Assembly: GCF_022354825.1 (NCBI RefSeq)
Contig: NZ_CP031168.1
Coordinates: 869,501-933,500 of the forward strand
DNA: 64,000 nucleotides
Source of the DNA: Paenibacillus sp. H1-7
GTDB lineage: Bacteria; Bacillota; Bacilli; Paenibacillales; NBRC-103111
Direction of reading: 5' to 3'
Numbering within the stretch: the first letter of the stretch is position 1; the number at the start of each line of letters is the position of its first letter. The translations under genes and the position numbers were made by a program. Positions 58,687 through 62,876 of this stretch are shown piece after piece. Under the pieces are notes generated by a model. It saw nothing but the letters and a program-made list of their open reading frames with translations. It searched no databases and had not been told where the DNA came from.

Positions 58687-58831
58687 GCGTGGATGGGGGA
58701 ACGTGGCGTTGGGTGATGCATGATCAGGGGCCGCAAGTGAGTACTCAATGCTCGATAGACTATAGTTAAGCATGTTGCCGTATGAAGTAATGTGGGACGG
58801 CGTTGTCTCGTAGTTCGCCATTTGGAGGGTA

Positions 58832-59014
58832 AGCGGACCGTAGATCCGCTATTTTGCATTATTGTGCCCAAAATCATCGATGATCGGACACAGGATCCGT
58901 TATATGCCTCTCGGAGGGCAATTTCCTGGCGAATTTCACCAAATAGCGGATTCTCTGTCCGATGGCATCAAGAAATGAGGTTATTTTGGCAAAATAGCGG
59001 AACCAGTGTCCGAT
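58832..59014. repeat. Tetrad element, copy D
   Basis: Forward units lie at 58832-58854 and 58883-58905, reverse units at 58941-58963 and 58992-59014. Starts in each arm are 51 bp apart and the centre is 35 bp. The element lies between the convergent acetyltransferase and tmrB genes. Confidence 0.88.
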
Positions 59015-59068
59015 AGGCGCGTCCCCCAACCCCTTGCAGCACGGATAACCCGTGTCTCAAAAAAAGCT

Positions 59069-60109: not shown

Positions 60110-60166
60110 AACGCATCGCTCCTTTACATCACAGATTGGATTGGGTGAAGCGCCGATGCCAACCAT

Positions 60167-60193
60167 TACCCCCTCTGATATCGTGCTGAAACA
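60167..60193 (-). promoter_or_regulatory. SigB-type promoter of the 52-residue protein gene
   Basis: On the minus strand GTTTCA (60193-60188), 15 bases and GGGTAA (60172-60167) match the signature found ahead of rsbV. Confidence 0.6.
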
Positions 60194-60196
60194 TGG

Positions 60197-60222
60197 TTTC
60201 ACCCCCTCGCTTCGAGGGTAAT
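60197..60222 (+). promoter_or_regulatory. SigB-type promoter directed at the ytxG-rsbV-rsbW-sigB region
   Basis: GTTTCA (60197-60202), 14 bases and GGGTAA (60217-60222) stand back-to-back with the minus-strand promoter; only three bases separate the two -35 boxes. Transcription would cross about 520 bases of repeats before the ytxG-like gene. Confidence 0.6.
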
Positions 60223-60320: not shown

Positions 60321-60378
60321 ATGCTTAATGGGAGTAAGTTTTTTCTTTGAAAAACTTAGCCAAGCTTACGAAGTAAGT
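60321..60378 (+). repeat. Outlying paired-hairpin repeat units
   Basis: A divergent unit starts GCTTAATGGGAGTAAG (60321) and continues TTTTTTC..GAAAAAC; a second unit start GCTTACGAAGTAAGT follows at 60364. They are separated from the main array by the fold-back element. Confidence 0.7.
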
Positions 60379-60384
60379 CAGGCT

Positions 60385-60585
60385 GTTGAGAAACCTGATT
60401 TCTCAGAAAATACTAAGGGGGTAAGTGGGGTATCTCCTGGAAGAGTGTTAGCGACCGCCTTTGTTTTCAGAAAATGCACCACTAGAATGCGATAAATTAA
60501 AGATTTTCTGAAAAACAACAGCGGCTGAGGAAGGTACCCCACCGGGATACCCTTACAGCTTTTTCCGTTCTACGGGTTTCTCAAC
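60385..60585. mobile_element. Candidate fold-back (MITE-like) element, 201 bp
   Basis: Perfect 11-bp terminal inverted repeats GTTGAGAAACC (60385-60395) and GGTTTCTCAAC (60575-60585) bound the segment. Within it GTAAG..GGTATC pairs with GATACC..CTTAC, and CAGAAAAT (60468-60475) pairs with ATTTTCTG (60503-60510). It separates units of a tandem array, as an insertion would. It encodes nothing. A stable structured RNA of about 200 bases is the alternative. Confidence 0.5.
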
Positions 60586-60591
60586 AAGCTC

Positions 60592-60736
60592 GCTTACGAA
60601 GTAAGTTTTTCTACGAAAACCAGCTAATGCTTACGAAGTAAGTTTTTCTACGAAAAACTCAGCCAATGCTTACGAAGTAAGTTTTTTCGAAAACCAGCTA
60701 ATGCTTACGAAGTAAGTTTTTCTACGAAAAACTCTT
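60592..60736 (+). repeat. Array of four paired-hairpin units
   Basis: Units start GCTTACGAAGTAAG at 60592, 60629, 60668 and 60703 (spacing 37, 39 and 35). Each has two small hairpins: CTTAC-GAA-GTAAG and TTTTTC-TAC-GAAAAA. The array ends 15 bases before the ytxG-like ATG, next to its ribosome binding site. Confidence 0.85.
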
Positions 60737-60750
60737 AGGAGGTAAAAACT

Positions 60751-61206
60751 ATGATCATTGAAATTAGCGTAGCGGTAATAGCCTTAGCTTTCGTCGTGTT
60801 GGTAGCCTTCCTTATCGTCACTTTGCGCTCGATGTCGGCGCTGCTTGGCCAAACGAACAATACGATCCGGGAGCTGCAGTATGATTTGAAGGATTTGTCC
60901 AAGCAAGCGACGGATTTGCTGCAGCATACGAATGAGGTGACGGTCGACGTGCTGCATAAGCTGCAGTCTCTGGAGCCGACTTTTGACTCGGTGAAGCAGG
61001 TAGGGGAAGCGGTGGAGGAAATTACCTCCTCGGTGAAGCAGGCGTCGACGACCGTGGCGCACACGATCAAGACGAAAGTAACTGAAGAAGCCCGCAAGCC
61101 GCTCAACCAAAAAATAGCCGCAGCCCTGCAGCTGACGCCGATTGTAATGGATTTATGGCAGCAGCTCAAGCAGCGGCAGCAGCATGCAGCACCAACGGTC
61201 AAATAA
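60751..61206 (+). CDS. ytxG: DUF948 protein, YtxG-like
   Basis: The 151-residue protein has one N-terminal membrane helix (about 5-25) followed by a long amphipathic helical region (MSALLGQTNNTIRELQYDLKDLSKQATDLLQHTNEV), the DUF948 pattern. B. subtilis YtxG is a general stress protein. AGGAGG precedes the ATG. The gene lies 92 bases upstream of rsbV. Confidence 0.85.
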   Translation: MIIEISVAVIALAFVVLVAFLIVTLRSMSALLGQTNNTIRELQYDLKDLSKQATDLLQHTNEVTVDVLHKLQSLEPTFDSVKQVGEAVEEITSSVKQASTTVAHTIKTKVTEEARKPLNQKIAAALQLTPIVMDLWQQLKQRQQHAAPTVK

Positions 61207-61298: not shown

Positions 61299-61634
61299 AT
61301 GAATCGTCAGCATACGTTTGAGATAGAGAAACAGGTAACTTCTGATAGCAATATATTTTATCTGAAGGGTGAGCTCGATCTTTCCAAAGCGGCGGAGTTC
61401 CGCTCTGCGGCCGACCCGCTCGTAGCGGATACGCAACGGCAATTGGTGCTCAATTTGCGCGAGCTTGGATATATTGACAGTACGGGGATCGGCGTGATTT
61501 TGTCGCTGCTCAAAGCACGGCATGTACTGAAAGCGCCTATGCTCGTCGAAGAAGTGCCGGCCAAAATTAAACGATTGTTTGATATGACGGGCCTGACGCG
61601 CTTTATTGATGAAACAAAGAATATGGTGAACTAG
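61299..61634 (+). CDS. rsbV: Anti-anti-sigma factor RsbV
   Basis: The 111-residue STAS-domain protein has the phospho-site segment LGYIDSTGIGVIL, with the likely acceptor Ser61. When dephosphorylated by an RsbY-type phosphatase it binds RsbW and releases SigB. The ATG at 61299 is preceded by GGAGGAG. It is followed 19 bases later by rsbW. Confidence 0.92.
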   Translation: MNRQHTFEIEKQVTSDSNIFYLKGELDLSKAAEFRSAADPLVADTQRQLVLNLRELGYIDSTGIGVILSLLKARHVLKAPMLVEEVPAKIKRLFDMTGLTRFIDETKNMVN

Positions 61635-61653: not shown

Positions 61654-62103
61654 ATGAACTGGGAGAATCGTACAGTAAGTATGACGTTGCCTGCAGAAGC
61701 CGAATTTATCGATTTGGTACGGTTGACCCTCTACGGGATTTGTACGAAAATCGGTTTTACTTACGAGGAGATTGAGGATATGAAGGTCGCTGTGGCGGAA
61801 GCATGCAACAACGCTGTCGTCCACGCTTACGAGCCCGGGAATACAGGCACTATGGATATCCGCTTCGACATGCTCGATAACGGAATTCGCATTACGGTGA
61901 AGGACGAAGGAGCAAGCTTCGATTACGAAGAAAAAGCACAGCAGGCGAGCTCTCTCCACCAAAAGTCGCTGGAAGAAGCGAATATCGGAGGGCTGGGCAT
62001 TTATTTGATGCAAGCGCTGATGGACGAAGTGGATGTGATGAGCGGGAGGGGAACCGAGGTCGTATTGACCAAACGTTTAAGTAAAAGCGAGGAAATGGTA
62101 TGA
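61654..62103 (+). CDS. rsbW: Anti-sigma factor and serine kinase RsbW
   Basis: The 149-residue protein has the GHKL ATPase motifs of anti-sigma kinases: AVAEACNNAVVHAYEP (N-box), VKDEGASFDYE and GGLGIYLMQALMDEV. It binds SigB and phosphorylates RsbV. Its end overlaps the sigB start by 4 bases. Confidence 0.93.
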   Translation: MNWENRTVSMTLPAEAEFIDLVRLTLYGICTKIGFTYEEIEDMKVAVAEACNNAVVHAYEPGNTGTMDIRFDMLDNGIRITVKDEGASFDYEEKAQQASSLHQKSLEEANIGGLGIYLMQALMDEVDVMSGRGTEVVLTKRLSKSEEMV

Positions 62104-62876
62104 AATTAAATTCAGAGAGACCGGCGTCCAATATCCACGCACTGATAGCTGAATATCAGGAAACGGGTTGTAACGAGGTGGCTACCACTTTGCTGCTGCA
62201 ATTTGAACCGATGGTCAAGATGGCTGCGGGCAAAATGTCGCGCAACCGTCCGGACCTCTATGAAGATTTATACCAAGTGGGACAAATGTCCATGCTGAGG
62301 CTGTTCAAGCAATTCGATACGGAGCAGGGCGTCCAATTCGAAGCCTATATGATGAAGAGCATTATCGGCCATATGAAAAATTATTTGCGGGACAAGTCCT
62401 GGTATGTCCAGGTGCCGCGTCGGGTCAAGGAGAAAAGCGGCCGTATTCAAGGAGCGATCGACATGCTTACGGTTAAGCTGGAGCGATCCCCCAATGTGGA
62501 GGAGATTGCCGCGGAGGTGGAGTTGTCCGTAGAAGAAACGATCGAAATATTGGCAGGCCGCGAGTATTATCATTACGTTTCTTTGGACACGCCTTTGTCC
62601 ACCGAGGAGAATGGGGCTACGATAGGCGATTTGCTCAGCGAGGATAAGGATGATTTCCAGCAGCTGGAGCGCAAGCTCGATTTGGAGGATGCATTGTCTC
62701 ATCTGAAAACTCAAGAACAGCAGGTGCTGCACCTTGCCTATGTCGAAGGCCAGTCCCAGCGCACGATAGCGGAGCAGCTGAACGTTTCGCAGATGAGCGT
62801 ATCGAGGATTCAGAAGCGGGCTATCGATAAGCTAAAAGTATATTTCACGGAGTCCAGGGAAATTTCGGATGCCTAG
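62100..62876 (+). CDS. sigB: General stress sigma factor SigB
   Basis: The 258-residue protein has the sigma regions in order: 2 (DLYEDLYQVGQMSMLRLFKQFD, then FEAYMMKSIIGHMKNYLRDKSW), 3 (VPRRVKEKSGRIQGAIDMLT) and 4 (QRTIAEQLNVSQMSVSRIQKRAIDKL). This is the SigB/SigF/SigG group, and the rsbV-rsbW context makes it SigB. It should recognise the GTTTCA/GGGTAA promoters seen in this window. Confidence 0.93.
   Translation: MKLNSERPASNIHALIAEYQETGCNEVATTLLLQFEPMVKMAAGKMSRNRPDLYEDLYQVGQMSMLRLFKQFDTEQGVQFEAYMMKSIIGHMKNYLRDKSWYVQVPRRVKEKSGRIQGAIDMLTVKLERSPNVEEIAAEVELSVEETIEILAGREYYHYVSLDTPLSTEENGATIGDLLSEDKDDFQQLERKLDLEDALSHLKTQEQQVLHLAYVEGQSQRTIAEQLNVSQMSVSRIQKRAIDKLKVYFTESREISDA

Follow-up and report, generated by a model that had tools for sequence, protein, structure and literature searches.

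We found that the repeat array in front of the ytxG-like gene probably belongs to a family of RNA hairpins that act in cis and directly abut the Shine-Dalgarno (SD) sequence, and that the fold-back segment splitting the array is probably a MITE-like element favouring hairpins, inserted in unit 2; we give this combined reading a probability of roughly 60%. The array and the fold-back segment are two unrelated things. The window, meaning the whole stretch of 64,000 nucleotides analysed, covers positions 869501-933500 of an 8.38-Mb genome (hereafter the home genome), and the nearest named relatives at the ytxG locus are Paenibacillus. The features of the locus, in window coordinates, are the following.

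60166-60192, minus strand: divergent SigB-like promoter (GTTTCA, 15-nt spacer, GGGTAA) for a small membrane protein gene; the divergent pair also occurs in relatives.
60196-60221, plus strand: SigB-like promoter (GTTTCA at 60196-60201, 14-nt spacer, GGGTAA at 60216-60221), read from the sequence; same arrangement upstream of ytxG in related Paenibacillus, by inspection.
60323-60357 (genome 929823-929857), plus strand: array unit 1, degenerate; sequence and covariance-model match, E 0.2.
60364-60379, plus strand: array unit 2, 5' half only, cut by the insert; repeat family and partial model match.
About 60380-60590, no strand assigned: MITE-like fold-back element, 211 bp; 27 genome matches including itself, fold z = -5.3, absent at ytxG in relatives.
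60384-60395, plus strand: left terminal inverted repeat, TGTTGAGAAACC, from sequence.
60575-60586, minus strand: right terminal inverted repeat, perfect complement, 12 bp, from sequence.
60592-60620, plus strand: array unit 3; repeat family and covariance-model match.
60629-60660, plus strand: array unit 4; repeat family and covariance-model match, E 1.1e-11.
60668-60696, plus strand: array unit 5; repeat family and covariance-model match.
60703-60734, plus strand: array unit 6, ending directly at the SD; repeat family and covariance-model match, E 1.1e-11.
60735-60742, plus strand: TTAGGAGG, SD of ytxG, from sequence; a like junction occurs at dozens of other genes.
60751-61206, plus strand: ytxG-like gene, 151 aa; open reading frame with relatives at the same locus in Paenibacillus.
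61299-61634, plus strand: rsbV-like anti-sigma factor antagonist; TIGR00377 above cut-off.
61654-62103, plus strand: rsbW; RsbW equivalog models above cut-off.
62100-62876, plus strand: SigB/SigF/SigG-family sigma factor, sigB by context; best match TIGR02980, E 1e-59, below its cut-off.

The sequence-only reading had described six related units within about 415 bases, split by a fold-back segment, and this description was borne out: five whole units and one truncated unit, spaced 35-39 nt, occupy 60323-60734, with the fold-back element between units 2 and 3. The unit core had four matches in the window and none in shuffles. Folding of the four-unit downstream stretch (60596-60770) as a whole was no better than that of shuffles (z = 0.03), and a strong cooperative fold of the downstream array was rejected. 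What distinguishes the array is the direct contact of its last unit with the SD, a point not made in the sequence-only reading.

The hexamers and the 14-nt spacer, within the 12-15 nt typical of SigB promoters, fit a SigB promoter by sequence, and by inspection the promoter lies at the same place in relatives. It is plausible that the array is part of a ytxG leader made from this conserved promoter; if the promoter is used, array and insert would together form a leader of about 525 nt. The name ytxG rests on the sequence-only reading and on gene order, and an NCBIfam search of the ytxG-like protein returned no match. Promoter conservation, together with an insert that would be transcribed and has a strong fold, agrees with the idea that fold-back and array jointly regulate ytxG-rsbVW-sigB as a sigB-specific stress leader or a separate stress RNA. 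We regard this idea as very improbable, because the unit family is genome-wide and is not tied to sigB or stress genes, and because the relatives examined lack the insert at ytxG. The supposed special tie of the array to sigB or stress was therefore abandoned: the locus is one of dozens of sites, and the same unit stands before unrelated genes. At the same locus, the related genome of Paenibacillus sp. RC67 (hereafter RC67) carries an array without the insert, with two modelled units ending in TTAGGAGG right after the promoter, and the stem of its unit differs from that in the home genome, yet is intact. UNC451MF has the promoter and SD at ytxG, and neither array nor insert, and more distant species have no array there, indicating that the array is not essential at this gene.

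Each unit is about 37-42 nt long (consensus GCTTACGAAGNNAGTTTTNCTTCGNAAAACTC) and has the conserved box GCTTWCGAWG ahead of a covarying hairpin; NNAGGAGG comes immediately after the last unit. Two small hairpins per unit had been proposed, of which the downstream one stood and the upstream one did not. For the downstream hairpin (AGTTTTNC..GNAAAACT), 99.2% of cells were paired on 125 distinct units, seven of eight pairs changed on both sides, doubly changed cells numbered 151 against 47 in shuffles, and slid versions of the pairing collapsed, although these figures lean towards structure because the matches had been aligned to a covariance model. An independent swap test agreed with them: 89 of 91 downstream stems were fully paired, and exchanging arms between units lowered the mean number of pairs, out of 7, from 6.98 to 6.03. 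The most variable pair of the upstream hairpin (CTTAC..GTAAG) was paired in 32 of 91 units against a shuffled-letter mean of 31.0. The upstream hairpin is thus unsupported as a selected stem, and this part of the unit is better described as a conserved sequence box.

The extent of the family was measured with a covariance model that spans a single unit and excludes the SD. In the home genome it gave 140 matches at E <= 10, of which 131 were used, in 80 clusters, and in RC67 137 matches in 84 clusters; these counts are lower bounds, as they come from candidate-limited genome searches. An SD and an open reading frame follow the unit directly in 41 of the 80 home-genome clusters, and 65 of the 84 clusters in RC67 end directly before an SD. 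The distance from unit end to start codon was 13-21 nt in 101 of 106 cases from both genomes and 14-16 nt in 73 of them. All gene-associated units are sense-oriented and keep a single set spacing from the start codon. In 91 of the 106 cases a reading frame on the same strand terminates no more than 300 nt upstream of the unit (no more than 60 nt in 48), so that many unit sites are intercistronic. The longest tandem run among the matches listed has 11 units (G026:C1:1735598-1736050). Both genomes have a conserved open frame of 33 codons (MKMLISFTAALAT...) after ACTCTTAGGAGG, at L041 in the home genome and at L295 in RC67, with array units in RC67.

The genes that follow the unit are diverse, often core and often essential. 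Judged by their Pfam families, they include rpoC, rplJ, rplX, nusB, disA, remA, sepF, panD, argR, cysC, argH and tatA, together with genes for a Fur-family regulator, aspartokinase, biotin carboxylase, NAD kinase, an NADH-dehydrogenase-like subunit and ABC permeases; rpmJ was identified by sequence. At 24 orthologous genes (>=60% identity) the unit is present in both the home genome and RC67. Both stems are fully paired at 21 of these sites, and 12 show compensated changes, several of which are inflated by shifted register; clear same-register compensated stems were found at L087, L097 (ytxG), L120, L135, L136 and L146. Unit number varies between orthologous sites, and the sets of unit-bearing genes overlap between genomes only in part.

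The unit also stands 4 nt before 5S rRNA, whose identity at these sites was confirmed by Rfam, in four clusters of the home genome and eight of RC67. Units lie in the 23S-5S rRNA spacer at L085, L086, L092 and L094 in the home genome, at L240, L248, L305, L309, L311, L315, L316 and L318 in RC67, and at L206 and L322 in genome G036. The stems of these spacer units differ by compensated changes between genomes and between the rRNA operons of RC67.

Location, sense orientation, covariation and conservation at orthologous genes are established for the unit. We infer that the transcribed unit works in cis, either as leader sequence or between cistrons. A local hairpin beside the SD would leave the SD unpaired and may provide the cistron with a protected 5' end at a defined position, as a block to 5' exonucleases or as a processing site; tandem copies could serve as extra buffer. 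The predicted unpaired probability of the SD was 0.39 in native leaders and 0.33 in shuffled ones (103 loci, p = 1e-4). This predicted gain in accessibility is small and agrees with insulation of the SD by a local hairpin. A purely translational role would not account for the 5S rRNA sites, which suggest an additional or alternative role in protection or processing at RNA 5' boundaries.

Placement before SDs and 5S rRNA alike could also be explained if the unit were a binding or cleavage site for a dedicated trans-acting RNA-binding protein or RNase, linking the genes in one regulon or processing pathway. The box GCTTWCGAWG is nearly invariant without behaving as a stem, and tandem copies resemble arrays of binding sites, both of which favour such a factor. 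However, no candidate factor was identified, the downstream genes are functionally diverse, and the gene sets overlap only in part from genome to genome; we hold this explanation to be possible, though doubtful. A form of it, in which an order-specific RNA element delimits many cistrons and 5S rRNA at their 5' ends and is read by one dedicated protein or RNase, is likewise put forward tentatively, as an idea with the odds against it. Base pairing of the box with rRNA was rejected as a further candidate, the runs being at chance level: against 16S rRNA the box did no better than shuffled queries, and against 23S rRNA two longer query forms reached runs that 6 and 8 of 60 shuffles equalled and that were judged to be chance.

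Most of the remaining home-genome clusters, about 30 in all, lie inside other dispersed elements and not before genes, which suggests that spread by mobility is part of the history of the family. One such element consists of TACCACAATAGAATTT...GGCGATAAAAAC, a unit-like hairpin and TTTAAGGTCGCTC...CCTCGATAGAGGTTTTTCTCA, carries a unit-like core, is not located before genes and often begins immediately behind the T run of a terminator (home-genome loci L083, L095, L096, L099, L103, L107, L108, L111, L121, L122, L126, L129, L139, L148 and L158). Another contains a unit-like hairpin, and several of its copies are bounded by GTTCAAAAAGTCG and ACTTTTTGAAC (L119, L137, L138, L142 and L154, home genome). 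A further dispersed repeat, with GATCGGACAGGAGATCCGTTATTT-like text, lies in the window at 58830-59015, has similar text in L028, L110, L113 and L359, and is also found near several fold-back copies.

Unit-like cores inside at least three other dispersed elements, variable unit number between orthologous sites, and presence or absence at ytxG are what would be expected if the units were a selfish interspersed repeat of the BOX or REP kind, tolerated just upstream of the SD and keeping its hairpin for its own propagation. Such a repeat would not explain why the gene-associated cases are all in sense at one fixed distance from the start codon, or why the same position has been retained, with compensated stems, at 24 orthologous genes and, in more than one family, at rpmJ; and the genome has no Y1/RAYT transposase. 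We consider a purely selfish repeat unlikely and favour the cis-acting, SD-abutting hairpin.

The unit was present in all 12 other genomes of the genus searched, in most of the family and in some other families of the order, with matches in 41 of 59 genomes, a range that takes in Paenibacillaceae and relatives. It was not found beyond the order, and in a 199-genome sample of the phylum only the home genome and two genomes of the same order matched. Among the 39 best matches from about 25 other genomes, 30 lie before an SD and two before 5S rRNA. At rpmJ the unit occurs in four genomes from two families, and RC67 and one genome from another family both have it at a gene related to that at L241, which we read as atpC. 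A search of 12 unit-bearing loci against Rfam 15 gave no family above the gathering score other than 23S and 5S rRNA, and the window region gave only a chance miRNA match; a known Rfam RNA was therefore rejected. Searches of the open-access literature turned up nothing relevant on Paenibacillus repeats like the unit, which is apparently an undescribed family of small RNA hairpins.

The insert is short, has no coding capacity, and has terminal inverted repeats and dispersed copies, the features of a MITE. It had been described as a 201-bp segment with perfect 11-bp terminal inverted repeats and nested internal stems; the repeats are indeed perfect and the stems nested, with lengths amended to 211 bp for the segment and 12 bp for the repeats. 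Its predicted fold reached -77.4 kcal/mol, compared with -54.3 +/- 4.4 for shuffles (z = -5.3). The view that the array was split by an insertion gained support from the array without insert in RC67, from the lack of both in UNC451MF and from about 26 relatives of the insert in the home genome; an insert that is unique and conserved in place was not what we found at ytxG. Of 13 genomes in the genus, four carry the insert in abundance, and the others have few copies or none.

Stem-loops of intrinsic terminators stand on both sides of insert copies L012, L013, L014 and L360, and partly L356, which is what duplication of a targeted hairpin would produce; such pairs are absent beside many copies. 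A preference of the fold-back element for hairpins, which it would duplicate, is therefore suggestive. At ytxG the array's own repetition hides any target-site duplication, and there a non-autonomous, hairpin-seeking element of 211 bp probably landed in unit 2. No matching end pair around a gene was found in the flanks examined for a parent of the insert, and the PF13751 transposase is absent from the home genome. An IS1182 parent was rejected on these grounds for the home genome, and a parent may have been lost or may reside elsewhere. Upstream of cysC, a relative of the fold-back element interrupts a second array (L123 901-1186 in the home genome; L253 in RC67). A related insertion occupies the equivalent position in RC67, so the cysC insertion looks older than the one at ytxG. 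Fold-back relatives or remnants with a unit-like hairpin in one arm occur at L093, L100, L110, L112, L113, L125 and L151 of the home genome.

Dozens of Paenibacillus genes, including rpoC, rplJ, rplX, rpmJ and nusB, thus appear to share a common structured module at the ribosome-binding site. If functional, the module would represent a genome-wide layer of expression control that is invisible in current annotation, and could provide a ready-made part for tuning expression in Paenibacillus. If a dedicated reader exists, essential genes would share one post-transcriptional control or processing step. The split array at ytxG would be an example of a hairpin-seeking mini-element striking such modules.

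Among known structured repeats, BOX elements are built as boxA-boxB(n)-boxC, with boxB modules in tandem, and REP elements are short palindromic units that occupy many intergenic sites, are often grouped and are not locked to the SD. A REP/RAYT system was rejected, since the PF01797 (RAYT, Y1) transposase is absent from the home genome. BOX elements of Streptococcus pneumoniae are lineage-specific, have extensive secondary structure, may affect co-transcribed genes and were judged probably parasitic (Croucher 2011, PMC3049150). The unit is likewise a lineage-specific, structured interspersed repeat; unlike BOX, its position is locked to the SD and is kept at orthologous genes with compensated stems. 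BOX sequences differ from the unit and are set apart by description, and Rfam gave no match. For the insert, the closest precedent in hairpin targeting is provided by the insertion sequences IS1272/IS1182, which target inverted repeats, IS1272 itself replacing its target (PMC5678879); unlike these, the insert is about 211 bp long and has no transposase gene, PF13751 being absent from the home genome. Closest to the unit in position are the TAACTGA heptamer direct repeats of marine Beggiatoaceae, 7-nt units with no predicted RNA structure and with an SD in about 10% of cases, which form many arrays per genome, in sense, shortly before the start codons of diverse genes, those for ribosomal proteins among them, and for which a post-transcriptional role was proposed (MacGregor 2015, PMC4679880). 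Unit arrays are similarly short, tandem, in sense and just upstream of the start codon. A TAACTGA-type repeat was nevertheless rejected, as the consensus GCTTACGAAGNNAGTTTTNCTTCGNAAAACTC is not the TAACTGA heptamer, and the unit differs in its length of about 37-42 nt, its covarying hairpin, its contact with a canonical SD and its occurrence before 5S rRNA. By its SD and 5S junction, the unit family is apparently new among gene-associated structured repeats.
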